The notes under the pieces were generated by a model, which saw only the letters and a program-made list of their open reading frames with translations, was not told where the DNA came from and did not search any database. Shown here one piece after another: positions 10,218 to 61,870 of a stretch of DNA of 64,000 bases; position 1 is the stretch's first letter; every line of letters begins with the position of its first letter. Position numbers and translations under genes: made by a program. The stretch comes from Sphingopyxis sp. LC363 (GTDB taxonomy: Bacteria > Pseudomonadota > Alphaproteobacteria > Sphingomonadales > Sphingomonadaceae): contig NZ_JNFC01000003.1 of assembly GCF_000756385.1 (NCBI RefSeq), positions 1-64,000 of the forward strand, given 5' to 3'.

Positions 10218-11172
10218 ATGCGCCGCGCCGTCCTCGCCGCCCTTTCCGGCGTCCTCCTCGCCAGTCCGGCGGCCGCCGAAACGCTGCTCGTCGGCAACAA
10301 GGGCGAGGACACGCTGAGCGTCGTCGCGCTGGATAGCGGCGCCGAACTTGCGCGGCTGCCGACGGGCAGAATGCCGCACGAGATCGCGATTTCGCCCGAC
10401 GGCAGGCAGGCGGCGGTCGTCGCTTATGGCGGGACGACGATCGATATATTCGACGTCGCGAAGCGCACCAAGCTCCGGACGATCGACATCAGCCCCAACG
10501 AGCGGCCGCACGGGCTGCTCTGGCTGGCCGACGGGCGGCTCGTCGCGACCGCCGAGGGCAGCGAGTCGGTCGCGGTCGTCGCGCCGGACGGCAAGCTCAC
10601 ATCGATCGCGACCGGGCAGAAGGGCACGCATATGATCGCCGTCGCGCCCGACAATCGCACCGCCTACACCGCCAATATCGGGTCGGGGACGGTGAGCGTG
10701 CTCGACCTCGACGACGGGAAGAAGCTGCGCGACCTGGCCGTCGGCGGCAAGCCCGAGGGGCTGGCGCTGACGAAGGGCGGGCGCGAGCTGTGGGTCGGCG
10801 ACCTCGATGCGCCGCGCGTGTCGGTGTGGGATACGAAATCGGGCGAGAAGATCGCCGAATTGCCGGTCGACCCGGTCGCGATCCGCGTGCTCGCGAGCCC
10901 CGACGGCAGGCTCGTCGCGACGAGCAATATCGCGTCGGGCACGATCGATCAGCCTGTTCGACGCCGAAACCCGCGCACCGCTGAAGACGATCAAAGTGTC
11001 CGGCGAGGCGGCGAAGGGGCAGGTGACCTTGCTGTTCAGCCCCGATTCGAAGCGGCTCTATGCCGCCGAGACGGGGCACGACAAGGTCGCCGAGATCGAC
11101 GTCGCTACGGCCAAGGTGCTGCGCCGGATCGCGGCGGGAAAGCAGGGCGACGGGCTGGCGATCGCGCCCTAG
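10218..11172 (+). pseudogene. YVTN-type beta-propeller protein, frameshifted by GATC duplication
   Basis: A periplasmic seven-bladed beta-propeller of the YVTN/NHL kind. A signal peptide (MRRAVLAALSGVLLASPAAAE) is followed by repeated blades (PHEIAISPDGR, THMIAVAPDNRTAYTAN, KPEGLALTKGGRELWVGD). At 10943-10950 the four bases GATC are doubled. Removing one copy restores ...SGTI-SLFDAETRAPLK and the last blades (LLFSPDSKRLYAAETGHDKV) through to the TAG at 11170-11172. As given, the frame runs on out of register to 11267. It may be a young pseudogene or a sequencing or assembly error. It is divergent from the peptide operon. Confidence 0.8.
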
Positions 11173-42804: not shown

Positions 42805-44454
42805 CTAATCCATGAGTCTTTGGTTCGGGAGGGGGCTCGTGTTGGTGAACCATTGCTCGCCGGCGCCGCGGCGGCGCTGCATGACCTCCTCCTGAAATTC
42901 GAACATGCCCGGCAGCATATCGCGCCCAGCTACCGGACGAGCGCCGAACCGCATGAAATTCTCCGCCTTGCCATAGGCGGGCCATGCCGGCGCACCGTCC
43001 GCCGAAGGGGCGCCGTGCGCGGCGAAGGCCGCCCAATAGCCGACCATCTGCCGCGCCAGCGCGCGATCCTCTTCGCCGGCCGGCATCGGCCAATTGGAGA
43101 GGCCGCCGAACGGACGTCCTGCAACGCCGAAAACGAAGGGCAACTCGCCGGCGTGAAAAGCGCAGAGAGACCGCGCACGCGCCGCGGCGTAGCAATGATC
43201 GAAAAGATAGAGATAGGCGGGCTGACCGGCGCGTGCCTGCTGCCGCACGAGCCGCTCGGTCGCCCAGCCATAGACGGCGTCGCGCGTCGCGGCGAGCAGA
43301 CTCTCTTCGCGGTCCGACGCGGGATAGAGCCGCAGGAAAGCGGGCGCGAGATCGCCGAAGCGCCGCGCGATTTCGGCCTCGTAGGTCGCGGCATCGGCGG
43401 GAACCGGAGGGACCAGCGCACGCTGGCTGCGCACCTCGCCGCTGTTGAAGCCCGCGAGCACGGGCACTTTCGCTTGCTCCCCGCGGTCGAAAATATCGAC
43501 GAGTTGACCGGGCACGACGGCGCCGTCGATCACCGGCTGCGCGACGAAGCGCGCACGCAGCCCGGCGGCGACAAGCGCCTTTGGATCGGCGCGGCGGAGC
43601 GCCGCGAGGTCGGTCACGCCCAGGCTGGCGACAAGCGCGGTTCCGGTCGCCTCGGCGGACGGCATGCCAAAGGCCGCATCGCGGAGATGCGGTACGGCGC
43701 GCATGTTCGTGCTCTGGACGATCGCTTTCGCGAACAACCCCTTCGCGCGCGGGCTGGCGAGCAGATAGGTGGCGCTGAGCGCGCCCGCGGACTCGCCCAT
43801 CACGGTGACATTCGCCGGATCGCCGCCGAACGCGCCGATATTGCGCCGCACCCATTGCAGCGCCGCGATCTGGTCGAGCAGGCCGTAATTGCCCGATACG
43901 CCTTCGGGCGATTCGGCGCTGAGCGCGGAATGCGCGAGCCAGCCGAGGACGCCGAGCCGGTAATTGATCGACACGAAGACAATGCCGCGCCTCGCAAATT
44001 CGCCGCCGTCGTACATCGGGCTGGCGCTCGATCCGAATTGCAGCGCGCCGCCGTGGATCCAGACGATCACCGGCGCGCCGTCGGTGCTTTCGGGCGCCCA
44101 GACATTGAGCGTCAGGCAATCCTCGCGCATCGGACGCGGCGGCTCGAAATAGACGCTCGCGGCGGGATAGGAGGGCTGGACGCAGTCGGGACCGAAGGCC
44201 GGCGCTTCGCGAACACCCTCCCATTTTTCCGGAGGCGCGGGCGGGCGCCAGCGGCGTTCGCCGACCGGCGGCGCGGCATAGGGGATGCCGCGAAAGACGC
44301 GCAGCCCGTCCTCGCGGACGCCCGCGACGCGGCCCTCGGCGACCGTCACGGCCGGCGCTTCGGCGGCGAAGGCTGTGCTGCCCCCAACGGCCGCGAGCAG
44401 GAAAAGGGTCACGGCGACGTGGCGGCGCAATGCCGCAATATCCTTCATCAACAT
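42805..44454 (-). CDS. Carboxylesterase, type B family (first copy)
   Basis: A 549-residue secreted carboxylesterase that hydrolyses carboxylic esters. The signal peptide is RRHVAVTLFLLAAVGGSTAFA, then FRGIPYAAPPVGERRW, the EDCLTLNVWAP segment, oxyanion IHGGAL, the nucleophile GESAGA, and a C-terminal His region FHAGELPFVFG. The start ATG 44454 has GGGAG 4 nt upstream; ATG 44448 is the alternative. An operator-like motif (44502-44520) precedes it, shared with the divergent Tat-exported gene. The second copy is at 51072-52706. Confidence 0.92.
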   Translation of the reverse strand: MLMKDIAALRRHVAVTLFLLAAVGGSTAFAAEAPAVTVAEGRVAGVREDGLRVFRGIPYAAPPVGERRWRPPAPPEKWEGVREAPAFGPDCVQPSYPAASVYFEPPRPMREDCLTLNVWAPESTDGAPVIVWIHGGALQFGSSASPMYDGGEFARRGIVFVSINYRLGVLGWLAHSALSAESPEGVSGNYGLLDQIAALQWVRRNIGAFGGDPANVTVMGESAGALSATYLLASPRAKGLFAKAIVQSTNMRAVPHLRDAAFGMPSAEATGTALVASLGVTDLAALRRADPKALVAAGLRARFVAQPVIDGAVVPGQLVDIFDRGEQAKVPVLAGFNSGEVRSQRALVPPVPADAATYEAEIARRFGDLAPAFLRLYPASDREESLLAATRDAVYGWATERLVRQQARAGQPAYLYLFDHCYAAARARSLCAFHAGELPFVFGVAGRPFGGLSNWPMPAGEEDRALARQMVGYWAAFAAHGAPSADGAPAWPAYGKAENFMRFGARPVAGRDMLPGMFEFQEEVMQRRRGAGEQWFTNTSPLPNQRLMD

Positions 44455-44501
44455 GGCTCTCCCGTCGGCGATGCTTGCCATCGTCCTGCGCCCGACTTAC
44501 G

Positions 44502-44520
44502 CTCACACGCGAGTGAATAT
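44502..44520. promoter_or_regulatory. Putative TetR-type operator, site 1
   Basis: CTCACACGCGAGTGAATAT contains TCAC-N6-GTGA and the core AGTGAATAT. It lies 48 bp from the carboxylesterase start and 49 bp from the divergent M28-like start, so one site could control both. Matching sites are at 48531 and 55075. Confidence 0.55.
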
Positions 44521-44568
44521 CAAGCACGGACAGCGCGCGATCGATCGAATGGATGCGGGAGAGCCGAG

Positions 44569-45858
44569 ATGACGAAACCCACGCGGCGCGGCTTTCTGGC
44601 CGGGGCGACGGCGTTGCCGATCGCGACGGCGGTGCATGTTGACGCAGCGACCGCGCCGAATGCGATCGCCGCCGACCTCTCGACCTATATCGGCTTCGGC
44701 AACAAGCAGTCGGGCGGTGCGGGCGACACCGCCTGCGGCCATTGGCTGGCGACCGAGCTCGACCGTGCGGGCTTCGCGGTCGAGAGACTGCCGATCTCCG
44801 TCCCTTGGTTCGAAGGAGAAGGCTGCGAAATCGTGGCGGGCGAAAGGCGCGCGCCGCTGCATCCGCAGCCAATCGTCACCCCGACCCCCAACGGAGGCGT
44901 ATCCGGACCGCTCGTCCGCGTCGATGCGCATGGCCAGACCGACGCGCCGCTTGCGGGCGCGATCGCGATCGTCGACCTGCCCTATGGGCGCTGGTCGTCG
45001 GCGCTGCCGAAGCCGGTACGCGCGCCGGTCGATGCCGCCTTCGCGGGCGGTGCACGAGCTGCGGTGATCGTCACCAACGGCCCGACCGGACAGGTGATCG
45101 CGCTCAACGCCGACGGCCGCGCGCCGATGTTCGCGGGACCGGTCGGGCTGCTTGCCCCTGCCGAGGCCGCGCCCTTCCTTGCCGCCGCGATGCGGCGCCA
45201 GCCCGCGCGCGTGACGCTGGCGGGCCGCGGCGGGCGGCGCGCGGCGTTCAACGTCATCGGCCGGCTCGACCGCGGCAAGCGGCGCTGGCTCGTCGTCTCG
45301 ACTCCGCGTTCGGGCTGGACCGTCTGCGGCGGCGAGCGCGGCGGCGGCGTCGCCGCATGGCTCGATCTCGCGCGCCGGGCGCCGGCGGCCTTTCCCGACC
45401 ATGACATTGCCTTTCTGTGCAACAGCGGACATGAGTATGAAAATCTGGGCGCCGAAGAATCGCTGAAGGCCGTAGCGCCCAAACCCGCCGAAACGCATTT
45501 CTGGCTGCACCTCGGCGCCAATCTGGCGGCCCGCGACTGGCACGAGGGGCTGTTCGGCCTTGCACCGCTTCCCGGCACCGATTCGCAGCGCTATCTGGTG
45601 GTCAGCCCGCCGCTGCTACCCGCGGCGCGGCGGCTGTTCGCGGGCCTTGCGGGTCTCGAGGCGCCCTATGCCAGCGACCGGATTTCGGCCGGCGAACTGA
45701 CCGCGATCATCAAGGCGGGCTATCCCTCGGTGGCCGGGCTGTTCGGGGTGCATCGCTTCCACCATGTCGAAGGCGACGACGCGCGCTGCGTCGATGCGGC
45801 GGCGGTCGCCGCAACGATGGCGGCGTTTAGGCAATTGCTCGTCACCGCCGCCGCCTGA
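44569..45858 (+). CDS. Tat-exported M28-like protein without clear zinc ligands
   Basis: A 429-residue protein with a twin-arginine signal (TRRGFLAGATALPIATAVHV). A PA-like insertion (about residues 70-210) is followed by a fold resembling M28 aminopeptidases: LVVSTPRSGWTVCGGERGGG, VAAWLDLARRAPAAF, DIAFLCNSGHEYENLGAEESL. In active M28 enzymes the equivalent places carry His-x-Asp and Asp-Asn/Asp; here they read Thr-Pro-Arg-Ser and Gly-Glu-Arg, so the usual metal site seems lost. It may be a binding protein or use different ligands. It is divergent from the type-B esterase with a shared operator-like motif, so probably part of the same regulon. Confidence 0.7.
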   Translation: MTKPTRRGFLAGATALPIATAVHVDAATAPNAIAADLSTYIGFGNKQSGGAGDTACGHWLATELDRAGFAVERLPISVPWFEGEGCEIVAGERRAPLHPQPIVTPTPNGGVSGPLVRVDAHGQTDAPLAGAIAIVDLPYGRWSSALPKPVRAPVDAAFAGGARAAVIVTNGPTGQVIALNADGRAPMFAGPVGLLAPAEAAPFLAAAMRRQPARVTLAGRGGRRAAFNVIGRLDRGKRRWLVVSTPRSGWTVCGGERGGGVAAWLDLARRAPAAFPDHDIAFLCNSGHEYENLGAEESLKAVAPKPAETHFWLHLGANLAARDWHEGLFGLAPLPGTDSQRYLVVSPPLLPAARRLFAGLAGLEAPYASDRISAGELTAIIKAGYPSVAGLFGVHRFHHVEGDDARCVDAAAVAATMAAFRQLLVTAAA

Positions 45859-45861
45859 CTT

Positions 45862-47535
45862 CTACGCTTCGATGTCCCGCTTGAAGGTTTCGGGCAGGAA
45901 GAGGATACCGACCACTGCGGTGACCGCCGCGATCACCACCGCATACCATAGACCCTGATAGATATTGCCCGTCGCCGCGACCATCGCGAAGCCGATCGTC
46001 GGCATGAAACCGCCGATCCAGCCGTTGCCGATATGATAGGGCAAGGACAGCGAGCTGTAGCGGATGCGCGCCGGAAACAGTTCGACGAGCAAGGCCGCGA
46101 GCGGGCCGTAGACCATCGTCGCGAGCAGGCCGAAGATGCAGAGGATCAGGATCACCTTCGTCTTGTTCACCTGCGCCGGATCGGCCTTGTCGGGATAGCC
46201 CGCGGCGTCGAGCGCGGCCTTGGCCTCGGCGCTAAAGGCGGCGACCACCGCGGCGCGCGCGCCCTTGTCCAGCCCCGCGGGGTCGGGGACCGCGACCGCC
46301 CGGTCGCCGACCCGCACCGATGCGCGCGTTCCCGCCGGCGCCTCGACATTCGCATAGTTGATGCCATTCCTGGCGAGATAGGATTTGGCGATGTCGCAGC
46401 TCGTGGTGTCGAAGCTGTTCTTGCCGATCGGATCGAACTGGAACGAACATTCGCCGCCATCGACGACTACGGCGACCGGCGCGCGCTCGATCGCCGCCGC
46501 CATCGCCGGGTTCGCCGCGACGACGAGCGCCTTGTAGAGCGGGAAATAGACAAAGACCGCGATGACGCAGGCGGTCATCATGATCGGCTTGCGCCCGATC
46601 TTGTCGCTGAGCCAGCCGAAGAAGACGAAGCTCGGGATGATGATCGTCAGCGCCGCGGCGACCAGGAAATTGGCGGTCGCGCCGTCGACCCGCGCGATGC
46701 GTTCGAGATAGAAGAGCGGATAGAGATGCGCGGCGAAGCCGATCACCGCCTGCCCCGCGACCGCGCCGAAGAGCGCGATCAGCACGATCTTCAGGTTGCG
46801 CCATTCGCCGAAGGCTTCCTTGAGCGGCGCCTTCGACGTTTCGCCCGCCGCCTTCATGCGCTGGAAGACCGGGCTCTCTTCGAGCTGGAGGCGGATCCAC
46901 AGCGCGACCGACAGGAGGACGATCGAGAAGATGAAGGGCAGGCGCCAGCCCCAGTCGTTGAACGCGTCGGCATCCATGAACAGCCGCAGCGACACGACGA
47001 AGGTCGAGGCGAGGATGAGCCCGATCATCGCCGTGGTCTGGATGAAGCTGGTATAGAAACCGCGCTTTCCGGGCGGTGCATGTTCGGCGATATAGACCGC
47101 CGCGCCGCCATATTCGCCGCCGATCGCCAGCCCCTGGAGCAGCCGCAGGATCATCAGGATGATCGGCGCCGCGACGCCGATCGTGTCGTAGCCGGGCAGG
47201 AAACCGACGGCAAAGGTCGACAGACCCATGATCGCCATTGTGACGAGAAAGGTGTTCTTGCGCCCGACGATATCGCCGACGCGCCCGAAGACGAGCGCGC
47301 CGAACGGCCGCACCGCAAAGCCCGCGGCAAAGGCCATCAGCGCGAGGATGAAGCCCGTCGTCTCGTTCACGCCCGAGAAGAAATGGTGCGACAGGGCGCT
47401 GGCGAGCAGCCCGTAGAGGTAGAAATCATACCATTCGAATACCGTCCCCAGCGACGACGCGCCGATGACGAGCTTTTCATTCTGCCCCTTTTGCACCGCA
47501 TCCGCGGCAGGCAAGGCTTCGCTGTCGGTTGCCAT
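45862..47535 (-). CDS. MHS-family MFS transporter with large inserted loop
   Basis: A 557-residue metabolite:H+ symporter-type carrier. MHS features are LGTVFEWYDFYLYG in helix 1, FGALVFGRVGDIVGRKNTF in loop 2-3 and LQGLAIGGEYGGAAVYIAEH. About 115 residues (near 350-465) between late membrane helices form a hydrophilic domain with two Cys (GGECSFQFDP, TTSCDIAKSYL), which standard members lack. The stop is 4 bp from the convergent M28-like gene. The start is 73 bp after the stop of the SDR gene, probably one unit behind operator site 2. Likely imports a carboxylate released by the esterases. Confidence 0.88.
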   Translation of the reverse strand: MATDSEALPAADAVQKGQNEKLVIGASSLGTVFEWYDFYLYGLLASALSHHFFSGVNETTGFILALMAFAAGFAVRPFGALVFGRVGDIVGRKNTFLVTMAIMGLSTFAVGFLPGYDTIGVAAPIILMILRLLQGLAIGGEYGGAAVYIAEHAPPGKRGFYTSFIQTTAMIGLILASTFVVSLRLFMDADAFNDWGWRLPFIFSIVLLSVALWIRLQLEESPVFQRMKAAGETSKAPLKEAFGEWRNLKIVLIALFGAVAGQAVIGFAAHLYPLFYLERIARVDGATANFLVAAALTIIIPSFVFFGWLSDKIGRKPIMMTACVIAVFVYFPLYKALVVAANPAMAAAIERAPVAVVVDGGECSFQFDPIGKNSFDTTSCDIAKSYLARNGINYANVEAPAGTRASVRVGDRAVAVPDPAGLDKGARAAVVAAFSAEAKAALDAAGYPDKADPAQVNKTKVILILCIFGLLATMVYGPLAALLVELFPARIRYSSLSLPYHIGNGWIGGFMPTIGFAMVAATGNIYQGLWYAVVIAAVTAVVGILFLPETFKRDIEA

Positions 47536-47608
47536 ATCCTTCTCCCATTTTGCCCGGCGACGGCGGCGGGCTCTTCATCGGCCCGTCCGCCATGCCCCCG
47601 GGGAATCC

Positions 47609-48508
47609 CTAGCGTGCGGCCGCCATCGTCGGCGCGGTGAAGCCGGCGCTTGCCAGCTCGCGTTCGGCCTGCGTGAAGCCATAGGCGGGGACGCTTTCGC
47701 CCGCGCGGTCCGATACTTCGTCCCAGGCCGCGACCAGCCGCTGGGCCGCATCGTCGCCGCGCCCGATGAAGACGCCTTCGGTCAACGTGATATTTGCGGT
47801 CGCGAAATGCCCCGCCCCGGCGCACAGGATCGCGCGCGTCGGCGCATCGTCGCCGACCAGCGCCAGCAGCCCCGGGCTCACCGCCTCGGGCGCGAGCCGG
47901 GCGAGCGCGTCGGGCGCGAGCACGCCGTCGGTCATCGCGGTGGCGGCGGTCGGCGCGAGGCAGTTGACGCGGACATTATATTTCTCGCCCTCGATACCCA
48001 GCGTCTGCATCAGCCCGACGAGCGCCATCTTGGCCGCGCCGTAATTGGCCTGCCCGAAATTGCCGTAGAGCCCCGACGAGGAGGTCGTCATCACGATGCG
48101 GCCGAAACGGCGCTCGCGCATCTGGTCCCACACCGCCTTCGAACAGACCGCCGCGCCGATCAAGTGAACGTCGACGACGAGGCGGAAATCGTCGAGGTCC
48201 ATCTTCGCGAAGCTCCTGTCGCGCAGGATGCCGGCGTTGTTGATCAATATATCGACGCCGCCCCATGCGCGCGCCGTGTCCTCCACCATCGCCGCGACCT
48301 CGGCCTCGTCGGTCACCGAGGCGGCGACCGCCATCGCATCGCCGCCAGCCTCGGCGATCTCGGCCGCGACGCGCGCGGCGGCGTCGCCGTCGCGATCGTT
48401 GATCACGACGCGCGCGCCGTGCCGCGCGAGCATCAGCGCATGCGCGCGGCCAAGCCCGCCGCCCGCGCCGGTCACGATCGCCACCCTGTCCTTGAGTTCG
48501 TCCATCAT
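47609..48508 (-). CDS. SDR dehydrogenase, HSD17B4-like (3-hydroxyacyl-CoA type)
   Basis: A 299-residue SDR with RVAIVTGAGGGLGRAHALML, NNAGILRD, the Ser of TTSSSGLYGNFGQANYGAAK and the YxxxK pair, then KYNVRVNCLAPTAATAMTDG. This pattern and the C-terminal extension fit the peroxisomal multifunctional-enzyme-like dehydrogenases that oxidise 3-hydroxyacyl-CoA. The start ATG 48508 has GAGGAAAG upstream; ATG 48505 is equally possible. Operator site 2 lies 23 bp upstream. With the acyl-CoA synthetase nearby, a beta-oxidation-like role is likely. Confidence 0.88.
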   Translation of the reverse strand: MMDELKDRVAIVTGAGGGLGRAHALMLARHGARVVINDRDGDAAARVAAEIAEAGGDAMAVAASVTDEAEVAAMVEDTARAWGGVDILINNAGILRDRSFAKMDLDDFRLVVDVHLIGAAVCSKAVWDQMRERRFGRIVMTTSSSGLYGNFGQANYGAAKMALVGLMQTLGIEGEKYNVRVNCLAPTAATAMTDGVLAPDALARLAPEAVSPGLLALVGDDAPTRAILCAGAGHFATANITLTEGVFIGRGDDAAQRLVAAWDEVSDRAGESVPAYGFTQAERELASAGFTAPTMAAAR

Positions 48509-48530
48509 TCCGCTTTCCTCATTATAGTAA

Positions 48531-48550
48531 CTCACTTGTGAGTGAATATT
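48531..48550. promoter_or_regulatory. Putative TetR-type operator, site 2
   Basis: CTCACTTGTGAGTGAATATT: a perfect ACTCAC-NN-GTGAGT palindrome overlapping TCAC-N6-GTGA and ending in the shared core AGTGAATATT. It lies directly before the SDR start. Confidence 0.6.
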
Positions 48551-48630
48551 ATCCATCTCGCAGTCGGGCCGATGTGCCCTGCCGCCAAGCCCTTTATGGC
48601 TTGGGTCAGCCCGAAACTGCCTTCCTTTCC

Positions 48631-48707
48631 CGTCATCCGGCGAAGGCCGGGATCTCGCCGGCGCGTTATCCCGATACGGTGAAATCCCGGCCTTCGCCGG
48701 GATGGCG
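48631..48707. repeat. Intergenic repeat family C, copy 4
   Basis: Arms CGTCATCCGGCGAAGGCCGG and CCCGGCCTTCGCCGGGATGG, with inner GGATCTCGCC; the outer arms differ slightly from the other copies. It lies between the SDR promoter and the TetR gene stop. Confidence 0.8.
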
Positions 48708-48731
48708 GGGCCAAGGTAGAATGATCATCCT

Positions 48732-49424
48732 CTAGATACTGTCCTGCTTGCGTTGGTCGCAGATTTCGCGGAAACCCGCGGCCATGAAGCGCGCCATGCG
48801 CGCCTTGACCGCTTCATAATCGTCCGAATGGCACAGGCCGTGCGACAATTTGTCGATGCGCCCGGTGCGCGCGAGCGTCAGCATCAGCGCGCCGGTGACG
48901 AAATGATAACCCCAGAAAATATCTTCCTCGGCGGCGTCGGGCAGCGCCTTTTTCAATATCTCGATCAGGCGGAGCACGACGGGGTCGAAATATTTGTCCA
49001 TGAATTCGGCGCCCTCGGGGCTGTTCGACGCCTGCGCGCCGAACGCACCGTAATTCTTCCAGCCCTCACCGCCCTGGATATAGAGATCGAGGTCGGTGTC
49101 GAGGAAGGCGTGCAGCGCGCCTTCCACCGTCGGCTTGCCGCCCGCCGCGCGGTCGTAATCGTCGAGCGCCTGCATCCGTTTGTCGATCGTCACCACAGCG
49201 CGCCGCGCGAATACCGCGTCGAACAGCGTCCTTTTGTCGTCGAAATAATAGTTGAGCAAAGTGTGGTGGACGCCGACCTGTTTCGCGACATCCTTCAGCG
49301 TCACGCCGTGAAAGCCGTGCTTCGAAAACAGGAGTTCGGCGGTGTCGAGGATCTGCTCCATCATTTCGGCGCGCTGTTCCGCCTTCGACGGGCGCTTCAC
49401 CGCACTCTTTGCCTTCGACGCCAA
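48732..49424 (-). CDS. TetR/AcrR family transcriptional regulator
   Basis: A 230-residue TetR repressor. The DNA-binding domain is near residues 20-65: ILDTAELLFSKHGFHGVTLK, then DVAKQVGVHHTLLNYYFDDK. The C-terminal ligand domain is helical with several Tyr and Trp. No ATG is near; TTG at 49424 with AGGA 7 nt upstream is the best start, GTG 49442 the alternative. It is the last gene of the TonB receptor, esterase, acyl-CoA synthetase, TetR run, which suggests it controls this run and the other units preceded by the AGTGAATAT motif. Confidence 0.9.
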   Translation of the reverse strand: MASKAKSAVKRPSKAEQRAEMMEQILDTAELLFSKHGFHGVTLKDVAKQVGVHHTLLNYYFDDKRTLFDAVFARRAVVTIDKRMQALDDYDRAAGGKPTVEGALHAFLDTDLDLYIQGGEGWKNYGAFGAQASNSPEGAEFMDKYFDPVVLRLIEILKKALPDAAEEDIFWGYHFVTGALMLTLARTGRIDKLSHGLCHSDDYEAVKARMARFMAAGFREICDQRKQDSI

Positions 49425-49479
49425 ATTCCTGTCCTTCCGCACTTGATCTGTTTCGTCATGCCGCCGCGACGCGACGGGC

Positions 49480-51075
49480 CTACACCTGACCGTAATCGGC
49501 CCGCAATTGCATTTTGTCGATCTTGCCCGTCGGCGCGAGCGGCATCGCGTCGAGCCGCACAATCGCGTCGGGAATCCACCAGGAGGCGACGCGTTCCCGC
49601 AGCGGCGCGAGCAGGTCGTCGTCGCTGACCGATCCGTCATTGGTCTCGACCAGCAGGATCGGCCGCTCGCCCCATTTGGGATCGCTGCGCCCGATCACCG
49701 CCGCGAGCGACACCTGCGGCAACGCGCCGACCAGCGCCTCGATCTCGGCGGGATTGATCCATTCGCCGCCCGATTTGATCAGATCCTTCGACCGCCCGGT
49801 GATCGTCAGATTGCCGGCGCGGTCGAGCCGCGCGAGGTCGCCGGTGTCGAACCAGCCGTCACCATCGGTCGCGGGCGCGTCCTGCCCGAAATAGCGTTCG
49901 ACGACGCTCGGCCCGCGGACGCGCAAATGTCCCTCGGCGCCGCGCTGCTCGGCGAGCGCGCGCCCCTCGGCATCGGTCAGCAGCAGGTCGACGCCGATCG
50001 CGGGCTTTCCCGACACGCCGGCGGTGCGATCGGGATCGCCCGGGACCGCCGCGGTGCCGAGCGGCGACAGCTCGGTCATGCCCCAGCTCGTCTGCACCTC
50101 GGCGCCCAGCCGCCGCTCGATCCGTTCCATCAGCGCCGGGGGCATCGGCGCGCCGCCGACGAGGATGCGTTCGAGCGTCGGCACCTCGCCCCCCTCGCGC
50201 TCGAGATGTTCGACCAGCCCCAGCCACACGGTCGGCACGCCGACCCCCGCGGTCACCCCTTCGCCGCGGATCAGCGCCGCCAGATGCGCGCCGTCGCTGT
50301 GGCGGCCGGGCAGCACGAGCTTGCCGCCCGCCGCGGGCACCGAAAAGGGCAGCCCCCAAGCGTTGGCGTGGAACATCGGGACCACCGCAAGCACCGCGTC
50401 GCGCGCGCGCACGCCCATCACATCGGCCTGCAACTGGCGCATCGTGTGAAGGTAGCAGCCGCGATGGGTGTAGGTGACGCCCTTCGGTGCGCCGGTGGTG
50501 CCCGAGGTGAAGCAGAGCCCCGACGGGCTGTTCTCGTCGAACTCGCCCCAAGCGACATCGGCTGATGCCGCCGCGAGCGCGGGTTCGAGCGCAGCGACCG
50601 CGATGCGGCCGGTCCCCTCGCCCGCGTCGGGTTCGGCGGTGTCGGCGTCGAGCAGCAGGATCCGCCGCACGGTCCCGACATTGCGCGTTGCCGCCTCGGC
50701 GAGCGGCAGCAGCTCGGGGCTGACGAGCAATATGCCGGCTTCCGACTGCACCAGCATGGCGCCGATCTGCCCGGGCGTCAGCCGCGGGTTCAGCGTGTGG
50801 CACACCGCGCCCATGCCGATGATCCCGTACCAGCTTTCGAGATGCCCCTGCGTATTCCACGCGAGCGTCGCGACGCGGTGCCCCGCGCGCACGCCCATTG
50901 CATAGAGCGCGCCCGACACCGCGCGCGCGCGTTCGTAAAGCGCGGCATAGCCGATCCGCGCGATGCTTCCGTCCGCCCCAGCCGATACGGTTTCGGCTTG
51001 CGCGTGCCATTTGGCGGCGTGGGAGAGGAATTTGTCGAGCGTCAGGCCATAGGACTGCATCGAACCGTCGATCAT
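49480..51075 (-). CDS. Fatty-acyl/aryl-CoA synthetase (AMP-forming)
   Basis: A 531-residue ANL-superfamily ligase that activates a carboxylic acid to its CoA thioester through an adenylate. Motifs are LCFTSGTTGAPKGVTYTHRG (A3), SWGMTELSP (A5), GWFDTGDLARLD (A7), RSKDLIKSGGEWI (A8) and the catalytic lysine of PTGKIDK (A10). The His-Ala-Asn-Ala-Trp-Gly segment resembles medium/long-chain acyl-CoA ligases. The start ATG overlaps the stop of the upstream esterase gene (ATGA, 51072-51075), so the acid released by that esterase is the likely substrate. Confidence 0.93.
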   Translation of the reverse strand: MIDGSMQSYGLTLDKFLSHAAKWHAQAETVSAGADGSIARIGYAALYERARAVSGALYAMGVRAGHRVATLAWNTQGHLESWYGIIGMGAVCHTLNPRLTPGQIGAMLVQSEAGILLVSPELLPLAEAATRNVGTVRRILLLDADTAEPDAGEGTGRIAVAALEPALAAASADVAWGEFDENSPSGLCFTSGTTGAPKGVTYTHRGCYLHTMRQLQADVMGVRARDAVLAVVPMFHANAWGLPFSVPAAGGKLVLPGRHSDGAHLAALIRGEGVTAGVGVPTVWLGLVEHLEREGGEVPTLERILVGGAPMPPALMERIERRLGAEVQTSWGMTELSPLGTAAVPGDPDRTAGVSGKPAIGVDLLLTDAEGRALAEQRGAEGHLRVRGPSVVERYFGQDAPATDGDGWFDTGDLARLDRAGNLTITGRSKDLIKSGGEWINPAEIEALVGALPQVSLAAVIGRSDPKWGERPILLVETNDGSVSDDDLLAPLRERVASWWIPDAIVRLDAMPLAPTGKIDKMQLRADYGQV

Positions 51076-52706
51076 TGGCACCCCGCGGCTTTCGGCGGCA
51101 GCGGCGGCGAAATGACGCCGACGTTCCAGTTCCATGGAATGTCGCCCGCCGCGCGGCGGCGGCACATCACCGTTTCGTGCAGCGCCGCGGTGCCGGGAAG
51201 CAGGCGGTGCCCGGCTTTCGGCGCATCGGCGATGTGGAGGAAACCGGCGTCGTCGGAATAATCTGGCCAGTCGGGCTGGCCCTTCGCCTGCGGCCGGCCG
51301 CCGCGCGCGAAACTCGCCCAATAATCGCCCATCGCGCCCGCCAGCTTGCGTTCGGTGAGGTCGTCCGGAATTTTCGGCCACAGCGGCGGCGTCTTGCCCG
51401 CGGTACCGAAGATATAGGGCAGCTCGGCGGCGTGGAAGGCGTGGAGCTTCCATTCGGCGGTCGCCGGATAGCCATGGTCGAAATAATAGAGATAAGCGCC
51501 CTGCCCGAGCGCCGCCTGGTTCGACACCAGCCGTTCGGAGGTCCAGCCATACATCGCGTCGCGCGTCGCCGCGAGCATGCTTTCCTCGATCGTCTTCGCC
51601 GGATAGCGCGCAAGGAAGGCGTCCGCCAACTCGCCGTAATTGGCGCGGATCGCGGCGTCATAGGCCGCGGCATCGGCGGGCGGCTTGGGCAGCAGGAAGC
51701 GCAGCGAGCGGATTTCACCGGCGTTGAAGCCCGCGAGGATTGGCACCGGAGCTTGCTCGTTCCGGTCGAAGCTGTCGACGAGCTGACGCGGCACGATCTT
51801 GCCGTCGACGACGGGGAAAGGGAAATAGCCCGTCGCCGGCGCCTTTTCGGCGATGTCCTTTGCGGGCAGCGCGCGCAGCGCCGCGAGGTCGGCGGCGCCG
51901 AGCTTGGCAGCGAGGTCGGCGCCCTGCGCCTCGGCGGGCACCATGCCGTTCAGCGGCGCATGCAGCGCCGGCGCCGACACCATATAGGCGCTCTGCGCGA
52001 CCGCCTTGTGGAACAGCCCGCGCGCGGCGGGCGCGGTCATCAGATACATGACGCTGAGCGCGCCCGCCGACTCGCCCGCGATCGTCACATTGCCCGCGCT
52101 GCCGCCGAAGGCGCCGATGTTGCGCTTGACCCATTCGAGCGCCGCGACCTGGTCGAGCAGCCCATAATTGCCCGACACGCCCTCGACCGATTCGGCGCTG
52201 AGCTGCGGATGCGCGAGCCAGCCGAGCGCGCCGAGCCGGTAGTTGATCGACACGACGACGATACCGCGTTCGGCGAGCGCGCTGCCGTCATAGATCGGAT
52301 CGCCGCCCGACCCGCCGGTTAGCGCGCCGCCATGGATCCACACGAATACGGGTGCGTCCTTCGCATCTTTGGGTGCCCAGATGTTGAGCGACAGGCAATC
52401 CTCGCTCATCGCCGGCAGGTCCCAGGCATAGATGCTGGGGCCGCGCGGCCCCGGCTGCATGCACGCCGCGCCGAAGCGCGTCGCATCGCGGACGCCGTCC
52501 CAGCCCTCCGCCGGCTGCGGCGGCGCCCAGCGCAGCTTGCCGACCGGCGGCGCGGCATAGGGAATGCCCTTGAAGGCGCGGATGCCCTTCGTCTCGCTGC
52601 CCTCGACCTTGCCCGCGGGCGCGTCGATCACCGGCCCCGCCGCCATGGCCGGCGCCGCACAGACGGCGGCGGCGACAACGGCGAGACGGGACAGGCGGCG
52701 GATCAT
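51072..52706 (-). CDS. Carboxylesterase, type B family (second copy)
   Basis: A 544-residue secreted carboxylesterase. Signal peptide RRLSRLAVVAAAVCAAPAMA, then FKGIPYAAPPVGKLRW, EDCLSLNIWAPK, oxyanion IHGGALTGGSG, the nucleophile GESAGA and the His region FHAAELPYIFG. It is clearly paralogous to the product at 42805-44454. I prefer ATG 52706, with AAAGG just before; ATG 52718 has its purine box too close. It lies 26 bp after the TonB receptor stop and overlaps the acyl-CoA synthetase start, forming a tight uptake, hydrolysis and activation operon. Confidence 0.93.
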   Translation of the reverse strand: MIRRLSRLAVVAAAVCAAPAMAAGPVIDAPAGKVEGSETKGIRAFKGIPYAAPPVGKLRWAPPQPAEGWDGVRDATRFGAACMQPGPRGPSIYAWDLPAMSEDCLSLNIWAPKDAKDAPVFVWIHGGALTGGSGGDPIYDGSALAERGIVVVSINYRLGALGWLAHPQLSAESVEGVSGNYGLLDQVAALEWVKRNIGAFGGSAGNVTIAGESAGALSVMYLMTAPAARGLFHKAVAQSAYMVSAPALHAPLNGMVPAEAQGADLAAKLGAADLAALRALPAKDIAEKAPATGYFPFPVVDGKIVPRQLVDSFDRNEQAPVPILAGFNAGEIRSLRFLLPKPPADAAAYDAAIRANYGELADAFLARYPAKTIEESMLAATRDAMYGWTSERLVSNQAALGQGAYLYYFDHGYPATAEWKLHAFHAAELPYIFGTAGKTPPLWPKIPDDLTERKLAGAMGDYWASFARGGRPQAKGQPDWPDYSDDAGFLHIADAPKAGHRLLPGTAALHETVMCRRRAAGDIPWNWNVGVISPPLPPKAAGCQ

Positions 52707-52731
52707 CGGACCTTTCATCTCCTCGCGCCGA

Positions 52732-55008
52732 TCAGAAGCGGTAGTTGGCGCGGACGCCGATGGTGCGCGGACGCATGCGGGCGTAACGGCCGTCGAGGAA
52801 CGCCTCGGGATGGACATAGGTGACCTTGCTGTCGTCGAAGAGATTTTCGACATAGACGCCGAGGTCGATCGCCCCCAGTTTTGCCCCGGCATAGAGGTTC
52901 ACGTTGGTCCACGCCTCGGTGAAGTCATAGGTCGGGGCGACGGCATTCGGATTGCCCGGCACATTGGGGAACTGGTTCGGGAAGGCCCCCGCGTGCGACA
53001 CATTGACCGCGGCATAAGCGGTATCGGCACCGCCGATCGCGAAATCGTAGCGCAGCGTGCCCGACCCTTGGAAATGCGGCGAGGCAAGGCGCGTGCCGAG
53101 CTCGGCGCCCGAAATCGCGGCTTCGCCCGGGGTCAGGTCGGTCACCTTCGCGCGGTTGAACGAACCGTTGAGCGCGAGGCTCAACCCCTGCACCGGCCGC
53201 GCGATGAACTCGAATTCGAGGCCGTAGCTTTCGGCACCGCCGATATTCGTCGCGAACTGGATCGAGTCCGAAACGCGGTTCGCCTGAACCTGAATATCCT
53301 TCCAGTCGATATAATAGGCGGCGATATTGGCGACGAGATCGCCGCCGAGCCAGCGGCCCTTCAGCCCTAACTCATAATTGGTGACGCTGTCCGATTTCGC
53401 GCCGTCGGGGATGATCAGGTCGTCGGGATCGATCGCGCTGACCAGCCCGGCGCGCGCATTGACGACCGGGGTGCGAAAGCCCGTCGAGACGGTCGCATAG
53501 GTGGTCAGGCTGTCGACCGGCTTCCACGACACGCTCGCCTTCCACGACAGGCGGTCGTCCTTGACCTTCAGCCCTTCGGCATAGGCGATCGGCGTGACCG
53601 TGAGCGGGATGTTCTCCAGACCGAGGAAAGCGGCGGTCAGATAATTGCTGTTGTATCCGCCGCCACGAGTGAAGCTCTGCACTTCGGTGCTGCCGTAGCG
53701 CAGGCCGCCGGTGACCCAGAAACTGTCGCTGAAGCGCCCGGTCACCTCGCCGAAGCCTGCGATTTCCTTCTGGTCGGTATAGCTGTTGAAGCGCTGGTAA
53801 TATTCGTCGGGCAGCCCGGTCAGACCATTCTCGGCCAGATATTCGAGGCTCGACCGATAAGCGAAATCAACGGTACGGCGCTTGTCGTAATAGAAAAAGC
53901 CCGCGACCCATTCGATCGGCCCGTCGTGGCGCGAGACAAGCCGCGTTTCCTGCACGAACAGGTCGTCATAGCCATAAGCGTCGAGCGCAAAGGGAAAGGC
54001 CTGTGCAAAGGTGCCCGCGAGGTCGACATAGAAGGAGGCGTCATAGTCCGACAGCGTCGTCGAGCTGATCAGCTCGGCGAAATCGAACTCGTAATTGATC
54101 GTCACATTATAATTGGTGAGCTTGCCCTGGAACAGGTCGGGACGGTCCGAGCGGCGCACGAACTTGCCGAGCAGCGGGTTGGTCAGCCCCGAATCGGCGG
54201 GCTTGCTGTTCTCGTACGACGCGAGCAGCTTCACCTTCATGCGGTCGGTCGGCTGGAGGAGCAGGATCGCGCGGCCGCCGAACGCCTCGAGGCTGTTCGA
54301 ATCCTCGATCCCGGTGCCGATATTGTCGACCCAGCCGTCCTCGTTGCGATAATAGCCGGTGACGCGCAGCCCGATCTCGTCCTTCATGATCGGCAAATTG
54401 ACCATCGCATTATAGCGCTGGCGCACCGAGCTCGACCCGGTGAGGCCGAGGTCGATACTCGCCGAGGCCTCGAAATCGTCGAGGTCGGGGCTCTTGGTGA
54501 TGATCCGCATTGCACCCGCGAGCGAGTTCGACCCGAACAAGGTGCCCTGCGGCCCGCGCAGGAACTCGACGCGCTCGACGTCGTAGAGATTGGGATCGAG
54601 GATCGTCGAATTGCCGTTCGCCGAAATCGGCAGCTCGTCGACATAGATGGCGACCGCGCTCTGCAGGCCGGCCGAATAGCCGTTGGTGTTGATCCCGCGC
54701 GCGGTGAAATTGTTGAAATTCTGCGTCGGACGGTTGACGACGATGCCCGGCGTATTCTGGGCGATGCCCTCGAACCCGACGATGCCGAGATCGTCGAGTT
54801 CCTCCTGCCCGAACGCGGTGACGCTGAGCGGCACGTCCTGCAGGCGGGCGGTACGGCGGGTCGCGGTGACGATGATGTCGTTATCGTCCCTCTGCTGATC
54901 CGATGCCGCCGTATCGGCGGGCGGCGCCTCGACCCCTTGGGCCATGACGGCAACGGGCGACGCGAACAGCGCGGCGGCCGAGGCGGACGCAAAAAGCTGA
55001 GCCTTCAT
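52732..55008 (-). CDS. TonB-dependent outer-membrane receptor
   Basis: A 758-residue TonB-dependent transporter. It has a signal peptide (SASAAALFASPVAVMAQG), the TonB box-like DNDIIVTATRRTARLQDVPL and a plug domain to about residue 170 (VERVEFLRGPQGTLFGSNSL). A 22-strand barrel follows, ending in the aromatic C-terminus RTIGVRANYRF. No siderophore genes are near. The downstream esterase and acyl-CoA synthetase suggest it imports an ester-type organic compound. Operator site 3 lies about 65-100 bp upstream of the start. Confidence 0.95.
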   Translation of the reverse strand: MKAQLFASASAAALFASPVAVMAQGVEAPPADTAASDQQRDDNDIIVTATRRTARLQDVPLSVTAFGQEELDDLGIVGFEGIAQNTPGIVVNRPTQNFNNFTARGINTNGYSAGLQSAVAIYVDELPISANGNSTILDPNLYDVERVEFLRGPQGTLFGSNSLAGAMRIITKSPDLDDFEASASIDLGLTGSSSVRQRYNAMVNLPIMKDEIGLRVTGYYRNEDGWVDNIGTGIEDSNSLEAFGGRAILLLQPTDRMKVKLLASYENSKPADSGLTNPLLGKFVRRSDRPDLFQGKLTNYNVTINYEFDFAELISSTTLSDYDASFYVDLAGTFAQAFPFALDAYGYDDLFVQETRLVSRHDGPIEWVAGFFYYDKRRTVDFAYRSSLEYLAENGLTGLPDEYYQRFNSYTDQKEIAGFGEVTGRFSDSFWVTGGLRYGSTEVQSFTRGGGYNSNYLTAAFLGLENIPLTVTPIAYAEGLKVKDDRLSWKASVSWKPVDSLTTYATVSTGFRTPVVNARAGLVSAIDPDDLIIPDGAKSDSVTNYELGLKGRWLGGDLVANIAAYYIDWKDIQVQANRVSDSIQFATNIGGAESYGLEFEFIARPVQGLSLALNGSFNRAKVTDLTPGEAAISGAELGTRLASPHFQGSGTLRYDFAIGGADTAYAAVNVSHAGAFPNQFPNVPGNPNAVAPTYDFTEAWTNVNLYAGAKLGAIDLGVYVENLFDDSKVTYVHPEAFLDGRYARMRPRTIGVRANYRF

Positions 55009-55074
55009 ATCAAACTCTCCCTCCCGTCAGCGGTCATTGCCGCCGATCTGGGCCCAGCTTATCGGCAAGATTCT

Positions 55075-55108
55075 CGCGCGAGTCAATATTCACTATCGCG
55101 TGTGTGAA
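55075..55108. promoter_or_regulatory. Putative TetR-type operator, site 3 (double)
   Basis: On the minus strand TTCACACACGCGATAGTGAA (55108-55089) is followed directly by TATTGACTCGCGAG. AGTGAATATT thus appears on the minus strand and AGTCAATATT on the plus strand around a shared AATATT. It resembles sites 1 and 2. Confidence 0.55.
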
Positions 55109-55192: not shown

Positions 55193-56284
55193 TTACGCCC
55201 CGATCCGCGCCAGCCCGTCCATCACCGCGGTCAGGGCGAGCGCATTCTCGCGCTCCATCGCGCTATGCCCCGCATTGGTGACCACATAAGTGTAGGGTCC
55301 CCCGCCCGCTTCGCGCAGCGCCGCGACGAGCCGCGACGCCTGCGTCAGCGGGCACACCTCGTCAAAGCGGCCATGGACGATATGGATGGGGATGCCGGCG
55401 AGCGTGGCGATATTGTCGAAGAAATGCCCCGCGGGGAGGAACAGCGCGTTGGCGAAATAATGCGCCTCGATCTGCGCGAAGCAGAGCGCGAAATCGGCCT
55501 CGCCGAACTTGCCCGTGTCAGCCGTCTCGGGGATCATGTTCGAAATCACGCCCTCCCACAAGGACCAGGTCAGCGCCGCCTTGAGCTGGCGTTCTTTCTC
55601 GGCCGGGGTCTCGGGGACCATGTCGAAGATCGCCTTGTAGGATTTCATCACGTCGCCGCGCTCTTCGGGCGTCAGCACCGACAGCAGTTCGGCCCACTCG
55701 CCAGGATATTTCATATAGGCGCCGGGTTCGGTGAGGGCATAGGGATCGTCGGCCCACGTCGCGGCATTGCCCTGATAGAGATAGAGCAGATCCTCGGGCG
55801 CCCCCAGAAAGATGCCGCGCAGGATCAGGCTTGCGCAATGCTCGGGATGCGCGATGGCATAGGCCATCGCAAGCGTGCTGCCCCAGCTGCCGCCGAAGAC
55901 GTGCATCGGCCCCGCGATCTCCAGCTTGTCGCGCAATTTCTCGATGTCGCCGATCAGGTCGGCGGTGGTGTTTTTCGCGAGCGCCACCGCGGGTCCCGTC
56001 GAGGCGACATTGGGCTCGCTCTTGCCGCAGCCGCGCTGGTCGAACAGGATGACGCGATAGCGTTTCGGGTCGAAGAAGCGCGCCATGACAGGCGCGCAGG
56101 CGCCGCCGGGACCGCCGTGGAGGAACATCACCGGTTCGCCCGCCGGATTGCCATATTCCTCCCAATAGATGCGGTGCGCGGGATCGCGGTCGACCTCGAG
56201 CCAGCCGAAATTCAGGCAGGGCGGCTGCGGGTAGACCCAGTCCTCGCCGATCTTGCTCGTCGCCTGCAATCGCGAAAAATCCAT
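55193..56284 (-). CDS. pip: Prolyl aminopeptidase (proline iminopeptidase)
   Basis: A 363-residue alpha/beta hydrolase releasing N-terminal proline from peptides. Family marks are the oxyanion LHGGPGGACAP, VILFDQRGCGKSEP, the nucleophile GGSWGSTLAMAYA, the acid in HIVHGRFDEVCP and the His of NAGHSAME. The start MDFSRLQATSKIGEDWVYPQ at 56284 replaces a long spurious extension. About 40 N-terminal residues precede the usual family start, perhaps an extra segment. It is co-directional with the TonB receptor, but operator site 3 lies between them, so it is probably a separate unit. Confidence 0.9.
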   Translation of the reverse strand: MDFSRLQATSKIGEDWVYPQPPCLNFGWLEVDRDPAHRIYWEEYGNPAGEPVMFLHGGPGGACAPVMARFFDPKRYRVILFDQRGCGKSEPNVASTGPAVALAKNTTADLIGDIEKLRDKLEIAGPMHVFGGSWGSTLAMAYAIAHPEHCASLILRGIFLGAPEDLLYLYQGNAATWADDPYALTEPGAYMKYPGEWAELLSVLTPEERGDVMKSYKAIFDMVPETPAEKERQLKAALTWSLWEGVISNMIPETADTGKFGEADFALCFAQIEAHYFANALFLPAGHFFDNIATLAGIPIHIVHGRFDEVCPLTQASRLVAALREAGGGPYTYVVTNAGHSAMERENALALTAVMDGLARIGA

Positions 56285-56513
56285 GTCTTTCCCTTCACTT
56301 ATGATCGGGCTGTATGGCCCGCTTAGCGATGCGCGCCGGCATGTCCACCGCGCGGGGCGAAACGCCGGGAACTTATGGCGCAGATCATCGTTCAAAAACC
56401 ACCCCTGATCGCGGGATGGTCGGCGCATATTTGCTCGTCCGCATGACTCAAGTCCCGGGGTTGGGCGCTCGCGCCCGGAAAGCGATTCCGGCCGCATCAA
56501 AAGGAGTGGTCTC

Positions 56514-56762
56514 ATGCGTTTCCAACCCGTCTTGATAAGCGCGCTCGGCGCGCTCGCACTCTCCGCCTGTTCGCAGCAGGAAGAAATCGCCGCGGCCCCG
56601 CCGCCTCCGCCGCCGGGCGCGGTTCCCGGGAGCATCGCCGCCGACCGCGACGGCGACGGCATCATCGACGGCTATTACACCGCCGACGGTATCTATCATC
56701 CGAACTACACCCCGCCGCCCCCGCCGCCGCCCGCCCCGACGCAGGTGGGAGAACGCGGCTGA
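56514..56762 (+). CDS. Small proline-rich lipoprotein with Asp-rich calcium-type loop
   Basis: An 82-residue lipoprotein. The signal peptide ends in lipobox ALSAC, then a run of six Pro, an Asp-x-Asp-x-Asp-Gly loop (DRDGDGIIDGYYTADG) resembling EF-hand or thrombospondin-type calcium loops, and a second Pro run near the C-terminus. AAAGGAG lies about 7 nt before the ATG. The stop overlaps the start of the L,D-transpeptidase (TGATG), so the two are translationally coupled, suggesting a cell-wall role such as anchoring or regulating that enzyme. No named family recognised. Confidence 0.75.
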   Translation: MRFQPVLISALGALALSACSQQEEIAAAPPPPPPGAVPGSIAADRDGDGIIDGYYTADGIYHPNYTPPPPPPPAPTQVGERG

Positions 56763-61345: not shown

Positions 61346-61870
61346 ATGAGCGCCCTTTCGACCCGGCACGAGCCCGACCCGGTCCGTCACGGCGGCCCGC
61401 CGGCGGCGGAGGATTACGCGCTGGGGCTCCAGTTCTGCCGCGTGGGTTTTCTGTCGTTGACGCGGCTGCAACTCGCGCTCGAACGCGGCGACCGGTCGCG
61501 CGCGATGGAGGCGATCGACGACCTGCACGCGCTCGATAGCGAGATCGAACGCCTCGTCGGCGCGCTCCCCGTCTCGTTCGACGATCCGCGACAGGGGCGC
61601 GTCGCCCGTCTTCTCAAGGAAGGGAAGATGGCGGTCGCCTTCGAAAAGCTTGCGCTGGCAAGCGGGATCAGCGGGCCGGATCTGTCGTCGCGACCCGGCG
61701 TTCCGGAGCGCATCACCGGCGTGCGGGACGAAGCCGAGCCCGCCGGCATCGCCGATTGGCCGCCCGCCGAGCCTCGAACGGCGCATCTCGTGCGCATCTA
61801 TGGACCGCGCGTAGCGGTGCTGTTCGCGATCGCGGCCGCCACGCTGACCGCATTGGTGGCGGCACTCTAG
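61346..61870 (+). CDS. Hypothetical protein with C-terminal membrane anchor
   Basis: A 174-residue protein. Most of it is soluble and helical (FLSLTRLQLALERGDRSRAM, then AIDDLHALDSEIERLVGALP), with a Pro/Ala/Glu linker and one C-terminal membrane helix (VAVLFAIAAATLTALVAAL), so tail-anchored topology is likely. AGGAGCAAGG precedes ATG 61346. I recognise no family. It lies between a divergent oxygenase gene and an M28 peptidase. Confidence 0.7.
   Translation: MSALSTRHEPDPVRHGGPPAAEDYALGLQFCRVGFLSLTRLQLALERGDRSRAMEAIDDLHALDSEIERLVGALPVSFDDPRQGRVARLLKEGKMAVAFEKLALASGISGPDLSSRPGVPERITGVRDEAEPAGIADWPPAEPRTAHLVRIYGPRVAVLFAIAAATLTALVAAL

Follow-up and report, generated by a model that had tools for sequence, protein, structure and literature searches.

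TetR regulons across Proteobacteria, including FabR, FadP, LiuQ, PsrA and RutR, have been compared by comparative genomics (PMC5343134, main text). Smlt2053, as presented in excerpts of PMC10304680, is autoregulated in an operon with a gene for a 3-hydroxyacyl-coenzyme A (CoA) enzyme, and the PsrA operator is given there as G/CAAAC(N2-4)GTTTG/C. Within the sphingomonads, palindromes have been proposed for the TetR protein EGO55_16300 of Caenibius tardaugens, in a CoA-ligase cluster for bile-salt side chains (PMC12882949, in part), and Sphingopyxis FumD is described as a periplasmic secreted esterase (excerpts of PMC10746191), with fumI as the partner of fumD (excerpts of PMC9025740). Here, we analyse a gene island of Sphingopyxis sp. 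LC363 that lies within positions 1 to 64,000 of contig NZ_JNFC01000003.1; we refer to this whole 64,000-nucleotide stretch as the window. The island encodes a TetR-family regulator (48732-49424), a TonB-dependent receptor, two carboxylesterases (Est1 and Est2), an acyl-CoA ligase, a short-chain dehydrogenase/reductase (SDR), a major facilitator superfamily (MFS) transporter of MHS type and an M28-like protein, and it carries the palindrome TTMAC-N10-GTKAA before three predicted transcription units. We propose that this regulator would repress the three promoters through the palindrome, and we give the ester-pathway explanation as a whole a probability of roughly 80%.

The regulator shares with PsrA, Smlt2053 and TfmR the TetR family and a related C-terminal domain, with 70.1 bits against the PsrA model NF053516 and 2.2e-14 against the PA3006 structure 2fbq. 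Its closest solved structure is NicR (5fhp, 1.3e-19), by its name a nicotinate regulator. Unlike PsrA, the regulator stays well under the NF053516 cut-off of 300 bits, and the PsrA operator as excerpted above differs from TTMAC-N10-GTKAA. The PsrA core AAAC-N2-4-GTTT does not occur in the island and is found in the window only at 11561 and 22154. Because of this score and the missing operator core, we set the regulator apart from PsrA. FadP and LiuQ are comparable as TetR regulons of acyl-CoA catabolism, but the word esterase does not appear in the main text of PMC5343134. EGO55_16300 is likewise a sphingomonad TetR protein with palindromes proposed in a CoA-ligase cluster, whereas the palindromes printed in the available part of PMC12882949 lack TTMAC-N10-GTKAA and its cluster contains an amidohydrolase and a steroid ligase. 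The likeness to FumD lies in an exported esterase (PMC10746191, in excerpt) and in Est2, whose best solved relative is the fumonisin B1 esterase 8s6d; the difference is that no aminotransferase (FumI) occurs among the nine island genes scanned, and that the other island genes point to CoA-linked oxidation. No description of the present regulon was found in the open-access literature searched, which covered titles, the beginnings of abstracts and some passages. Taken together, these sequence comparisons place the regulator in the TetR family and outside PsrA, with a candidate operator that is unusually well supported.

Results

A palindrome shared by three promoters

A preliminary description of this DNA had reported a common motif before three units, without a further copy in the window. 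The 9-mer concerned, AGTGAATAT, is indeed present at 44512-44520 (+), 48541-48549 (+) and 55086-55094 (-) and at no other place in the window (three copies in 64 kb, 0.07 expected; none of 100 shuffles reached three). The recurring element is the 20-bp palindrome TTMAC-N10-GTKAA, which occurs at 55089-55108 with no mismatch, at 48527-48546 with one and at 44498-44517 with two. At up to two mismatches it is found at five places in the window against 0.9 expected, and none of 100 shuffles gave five. An initial guess at a 16-bp palindrome was superseded by this form after distant promoters had been compared. The dyad TCAC-N6-GTGA of the preliminary description did not hold up in the same way: it is exact at only two of the sites (44503, 48532), has one mismatch at the third (55090), and is not enriched, with 15 places in the window when one mismatch is allowed and 14.4 expected. 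The doubled form that had been noted at 55075 represents the two arms of one 20-bp palindrome.

To describe the site independently of the window, relatives of the regulator were searched in genomes of named species; 219 were found and the best 80 kept (loci bear L numbers throughout), with 62 usable receptor upstream regions and 18 M28 upstream regions among them. Motif discovery in the 62 receptor regions returned TTCACACnCg[TC]GAgAGTGAaTaTTGA, and the M28 and Est1 regions, analysed separately, yielded TTGATATTCACTCgCg[TA]GtGAGcgTA. A palindromic matrix was then built from 35 distinct receptor sites of 47 loci whose TetR is less than 85% identical to that of the window. Its training set excludes the window and its closest kin and includes one Sphingopyxis locus with a close receptor (L123). 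Scanning the 64 kb with this matrix ranked exactly the following three sites first:

55089..55108, no strand (palindrome): operator O3, TTCACTATCGCGTGTGTGAA, before the TonB receptor operon; matrix score 30.1, the top of the 64 kb
48527..48546, no strand: operator O2, before the SDR-MHS unit; matrix score 16.5, second in the window
44498..44517, no strand: operator O1, in the gap that separates Est1 from the divergent M28-like gene; matrix score 14.9, third in the window and weakest of the three

The fourth-best match, at 61524-61543, reaches 9.0 bits and lies far under the three operators. In 300 simulated windows of the same dinucleotide make-up, sites of at least 14.9 averaged 0.04 per window, and 12 windows held one such site while none held two; for this reason O1 or O2 alone is not decisive, and the three together are. 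In the 47 training loci the best site is located 58-104 nt ahead of the receptor start, and across 49 non-redundant loci the majority frequency averages 0.85 over a 26-bp block, compared with 0.43 and 0.44 in its flanks. De novo motif searches upstream of the SDR, MHS, Est2, ligase and tetR genes gave output that we took for conserved coding sequence and not for the operator, and for the gene after tetR the motif question was redone on intergenic stretches only.

The genome-wide search called for by the preliminary description did not uncover many random copies once the palindrome was required. The 9-mer has 10 copies in the 4.2-Mb genome, and the seven outside the island lack the palindrome, with best matrix scores of -9.2 to -17.1 compared with 14.9, 16.5 and 30.1 at the operators. 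The 20-bp pattern written with D/H letters found O3 and O2 only at up to one mismatch; at two mismatches it found 23 places including O1, against 18 for the control. A loose 19-mer was rejected (96 matches at up to three mismatches, 123 for its reversed control), being confined to the island only at up to one mismatch. By these scores, the three island promoters are the only ones in this genome that stand out.

As previously noted, the sites lie near gene starts, the palindrome being 16 nt from the start codon of Est1 (with the start taken at 44481), 51 nt from that of the M28-like gene, 18 nt from that of the SDR gene and 80 nt from that of the TonB receptor gene. The predicted promoter boxes are as follows:

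55081..55086 (-): TTGACT, separated from O3 by 2 bp, as the predicted -35 box of the receptor operon; TTGAC is conserved beside the operator
55058..55063 (-): predicted -10 box GATAAG of the receptor operon, at a 17-bp spacer
48521..48526 (-): TATAAT, directly adjoining O2, as the predicted -10 box of the SDR promoter
44518..44523 (-): TTGATA, directly adjoining O1, as the predicted -35 box of the Est1 promoter; it is within the motif from the 18 M28/Est1 regions

A protein bound at these sites would be expected to block RNA polymerase.

Conservation at orthologous promoters

With a matrix score of at least 13.5 counted as presence, the site is found in 61 of the 62 receptor upstream regions, in 43 of 55 stretches from tetR to an SDR gene (47 of 55 at a score of at least 9) and in 11 of 18 M28/Est1 regions. 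It is present in 3 of 7 stretches from tetR to an MHS gene, and absent from the single stretch from tetR to Est1. The within-operon controls gave 0 of 73 upstream of Est2 and 1 of 75 upstream of the ligase gene. The regulator itself is more conserved than the proteins around it: in the 38 loci with TetR below 85% identity and all five genes present, median identity to the window protein is 78.7% for the regulator, 72.2% for the SDR, 67.9% for the ligase, 62.9% for Est2 and 57.8% for the receptor.

The candidate operator accompanies the regulator gene

Among 298 genomes of the family (G numbers), a homologue of the regulator (1e-30 or better) is present in 31, and in 27 of these it is at least 67% identical. 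The composite of operator and -35 box, allowing up to two mismatches, occurs in 22 of these 298 genomes, namely in 21 of the 31 with tetR and 1 of the 267 without (p 1.1e-23), and all 24 composite sites of the tetR-positive genomes are found no more than 8 kb from tetR. With the pattern reversed as a control, the 298 genomes gave no match. The exact form with D/H letters is carried by 10 of 31 tetR-positive and 4 of 267 tetR-negative genomes (p 2.6e-8), and since only 10 of 31 carry it, most true sites deviate from it. The sequence TTMACNMNCNNGNKNGTKAA at up to one mismatch was discarded for its poor separation of 26 tetR-positive from 20 tetR-negative genomes.

The half-sites also change with the recognition helix of the regulator. 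The helix HHTLxNYYF is present in 105 of 110 TetR hits of at least 64% identity, some genomes being counted twice. In G280, G245 and G155, a paralogous TetR that is 47-52% identical, with the helix S[SP]TL[IL]HYHF, is clustered with a related receptor, and the three paralogue receptor promoters read YTGAC-N10-GTCAG-TATTGAC, in which the spacing and the -35 box are kept and the half-sites are changed. This pattern, written from those three genomes themselves, occurs without mismatch in no other of the 298 genomes; two additional one-mismatch matches, in G235 and G004, look fortuitous. Both regulators are present in G280 and G245, and close to each of them lies the operator that belongs to it.

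Variants of this kind are seen at individual loci. A second TetR clade with the helix S[SP]TL[IL]HYHF and its own receptor is found in L071 (9688-14500), L072 (9625-14450) and L052 (14398-17700), with YTGAC-N10-GTCAG beside the same -35 box and an Est2 relative in L071 and L072; judged by these features, the clade is a sister regulon. At about 12740-12780 of L066, whose TetR is 67% identical with the helix HQSLLHYYF, the receptor promoter reads TTCATTCAAT-TGTGAATGAA-TATTGAC, so that the frame is kept and the half-site changed. In L073, a distant TetR (53% identity, helix HPALIHYYF) is preceded by a perfect palindrome, TTCATTTAGCGCTAAATGAA, at 10785-10804.

Where the neighbours of tetR differ, the site follows tetR and stands ahead of other transport genes. 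It precedes a branched-chain-type ATP-binding cassette (ABC) binding protein gene in Alloalcanivorax (L142, L164) and, by eye, an ABC permease gene in Mesorhizobium (L169), another receptor gene in Peristeroidobacter (L176, L177) and an MFS transporter gene of another type in several sphingomonads; in L047 it precedes a thiolase gene. In many other bacteria of soil and water, the palindrome and this regulator gene are found together. Among named relatives, those nearest to the regulator come from Sphingopyxis, with 100% identity in Sphingopyxis sp. JAI108 and 98% in S. italica; relatives of the regulator form 6352 protein clusters at E<=1e-30; no match on plasmids was found at 1e-40.

The island and its predicted transcription units

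Family searches bore out the presence of a TetR gene inside the island, and they agree with the roles first proposed for its neighbours, that is, outer-membrane uptake, hydrolysis, CoA activation, dehydrogenation and inner-membrane transport. The genes are:

52732..55008 (-): TonB-dependent receptor (PF00593 3.9e-31, PF07715 3.7e-18)
51072..52706 (-): carboxylesterase 2, Est2 (PF00135 7.5e-106), with a hydrophobic N-terminal segment
49480..51060 (-): acyl-CoA ligase, ACS (PF00501 1.9e-67); best solved relatives 6ihk, an AMP-binding protein (1.2e-121), and 1ult, a long-chain fatty acid ligase (1.8e-102)
48732..49424 (-): TetR-family regulator, probable TTG start (PF00440 2.8e-13, PF17939 7.9e-36), with homologues of the same length
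47609..48508 (-): SDR resembling the (3R)-hydroxyacyl-CoA dehydrogenase of MFE-2 (PF00106 2.3e-50; 2et6 1.1e-112)
45862..47535 (-): MFS transporter of MHS type (PF00083 6.9e-39; TIGR00883 348 bits, cut-off 443)
44569..45858 (+): M28-like protein that may bear a twin-arginine (TAT) signal and includes a PA-like region; the PA, M28 and TAT matches are weak and all below cut-off
42805..44481 (-): carboxylesterase 1, Est1 (PF00135 1.7e-105), starting at 44481 or at a later ATG (44448)

The first unit, on the minus strand, runs from the receptor through Est2 and the ligase to tetR as its last gene; with gaps of 25, 11 and 55 nt, it may be a single transcript. The second (-) comprises the SDR and the transporter, and the third is the divergent pair of Est1 (-) and the M28-like gene (+). 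Est1 and Est2 are 54% identical. The regulator exceeds the cut-offs of both TetR domains (PF00440 TetR_N, 49.9 bits against 24; the C-terminal ligand domain PF17939 TetR_C_30, 123.3 against 26.3), and the palindrome at the promoter of its own unit, O3, is a predicted operator.

The transporter is recognised by the general MFS models PF00083 and PF07690 and falls short of the MHS model TIGR00883, and an apparent extra stretch of about 90 residues (about 345-440) splits the latter match in two. The M28-like protein scores 13.5 bits against PF04389 (cut-off 21.3), and 14 of 19 relatives match this model weakly, the best at E 0.0018. Sequence search found no solved relative, and no PADLOC family matched. 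The family has at least 1241 relatives, many labelled hypothetical or PA domain-containing, and shows conserved STPRSGW, GERGGG, HEY, RDWH and HRFHH blocks; the ordinary M28 signature is not visible by eye, and in a comparison by eye with M28 motifs the zinc ligands look missing. Next upstream of the island is a prolyl aminopeptidase gene (55193-56665; TIGR01249 above cut-off). Because it adjoins the cluster only in L107 and L108 of the 80 named loci, it is probably not a member of the regulon.

Enzymes, uptake and substrate

The four closest solved relatives of the SDR (2et6, 3oml, 1zbq, 1gz6) are of the MFE-2 type. Both carboxylesterases of the window begin with signal-like N-termini and are predicted to be exported. 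By a simple hydrophobicity window, the N-terminal segment of Est2 is present in all 63 loci that have this receptor (>45% identity). Among 10 loci without the receptor, six have the segment, four of these (L168, L171, L183, L184) near a different receptor, and the four without it are one Alcanivorax, two Alloalcanivorax and one Marinobacter; the count covers the loci with Est2, which 7 of the 80 lack. This distribution fits a model in which an ester taken up through a TonB receptor would be split in the periplasm, and one taken up by an ABC system in the cytoplasm.

In the loci looked into beyond the nearest Sphingopyxis kin, the conserved core consists of the receptor, the MFS transporter, Est2, the ligase, tetR and the SDR, with no acyl-CoA dehydrogenase or hydratase. 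Since a ligase and a (3R)-hydroxyacyl-CoA dehydrogenase occur together in this core and those two enzymes do not, an ester of a 3-hydroxy acid is our best guess at the substrate and the weakest step of the argument. In Mesorhizobium sp. ES1-1 (L169, 639-20472), two sugar-type ABC gene sets flank tetR, one lying between a degradative 3-hydroxy-3-methylglutaryl (HMG)-CoA reductase and an HMG-CoA lyase, the other with a ligase and an SDR; an ABC permease there is fused to an SMP-30/strictosidine-synthase-like domain. The HMG-CoA reductase and lyase near tetR seem to point the same way, to a 3-hydroxy acid.

Discussion

The proposal that a TetR protein governs an ester-catabolism island gains support from the orthologous receptor promoters (61 of 62), from the co-occurrence of operator and tetR, and from half-sites that vary with the recognition helix. 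From these observations we infer binding, repression, ligand, cellular locations and substrate as follows. The regulator would sit on the 20-bp palindromes, on or against the predicted -35 and -10 boxes, and repress three promoters, those of the receptor-Est2-ligase-tetR unit, the SDR-transporter unit and the divergent Est1/M28-like pair. As the product of the last gene of the receptor unit, it would also regulate itself. The receptor would bring an ester into the periplasm, exported esterases would cleave it, and the MFS transporter would import the acid, which the ligase would convert to its CoA thioester and the SDR would oxidise as a (3R)-hydroxyacyl-CoA. A product of ester breakdown, on accumulating, would release the regulator from DNA.

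Several observations weigh against this proposal. O1 and O2 are weak sites, 12 of 300 simulated windows hold one site of at least 14.9, and 1 of 20 shuffles reached 16.0. Twelve of the 55 tetR-to-SDR stretches and 7 of the 18 M28/Est1 regions score below 13.5. In five of the SDR misses (Luteimonas L132, L148 and L180, Stenotrophomonas L150, Xanthomonas L151), a gap of only 52-55 nt follows tetR and may allow read-through, and in L171 a site of 23.1 lies just beyond the scored stretch. The composite operator is missing from ten tetR-positive genomes, of which four (G056, G081, G085, G237) carry no more than a distant homologue and two (G006, G225) have an altered recognition helix, leaving G062, G155, G197 and G264 with a close TetR, the usual helix and no composite. 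The co-occurrence is also partly circular, as some of the genomes tested also fed the motif; the absence of the composite from tetR-negative genomes is the part that is not circular. Finally, the surroundings of tetR in Alloalcanivorax L142 include two acyl-CoA dehydrogenases, a MaoC hydratase, an SDR and a thiolase, a set that suits ordinary beta-oxidation.

This last locus bears on the alternative that survives best, namely that the regulon is right and that a fatty acid, ordinary or branched, is released and undergoes complete beta-oxidation, with the SDR as the (3R)-specific dehydrogenase of the cycle. We consider this a serious contender, at somewhat less than even odds. The resemblance of the ligase to long-chain fatty acid ligases (1ult) agrees with it, as does the sensing of fatty acids by the nearest named TetR families (PsrA, in excerpts of PMC10304680), whereas the core without acyl-CoA dehydrogenase or hydratase and the HMG-CoA enzymes of L169 speak for a 3-hydroxy acid. 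It is improbable that another DNA-binding protein occupies the palindrome, with TetR merely a member of the cluster. Such a protein could account for the one tetR-negative genome of 267 with the composite (at two mismatches) and the four with the exact pattern in D/H letters, but not readily for a composite found in 21 of 31 tetR-positive genomes and within 8 kb of tetR, for half-sites that change with the TetR helix within the same genomes, or for a site that stays beside tetR when the neighbouring genes change. A fumonisin-type toxin-ester pathway, in which the esterases take tricarballylate off a sphingoid backbone, is very unlikely: 8s6d is the best solved relative of Est2 (3.9e-79) and Sphingopyxis FumD is an exported esterase (PMC10746191, in excerpt), yet other carboxylesterases score nearly as well (8wdm 1.1e-77, 1c7j 2.4e-75), the aminotransferase is absent from the nine genes scanned, and a CoA ligase and a (3R)-hydroxyacyl-CoA dehydrogenase would be superfluous. 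That the 9-mer recurs by coincidence, through chance or as a promoter box, and marks no operator has a negligible probability, for although the 9-mer has 10 genomic copies, TCAC-N6-GTGA occurs at chance level and the TTGAC part of the block is a -35 box, no shuffle of 100 held three copies, no simulated window of 300 held two palindromes as good, and conservation across genomes and classes has in effect already refuted it.

The proposed TetR regulon for ester catabolism may extend further. We tentatively suggest, as a possibility that we rate somewhat below the fatty-acid alternative, that it is a widespread, undescribed regulon with a portable cassette of regulator, ligase, (3R)-hydroxyacyl-CoA dehydrogenase and esterases for esters of 3-hydroxy acids, in which lineages would exchange the uptake machinery (a TonB receptor with varied MFS transporters, a branched-chain-type ABC system or a sugar-type ABC system) and the compartment of cleavage while keeping the regulator and its operator. 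Our analysis defines an operator, and identifies its probable cognate regulator, in a catabolic system that ranges from Sphingopyxis to Luteimonas, Xanthomonas and Alloalcanivorax. The operator could be used to pick out additional pathway genes in other genomes, and the regulator could serve as a sensor for a natural ester, which may be a common and so far unrecognised nutrient of sphingomonads.

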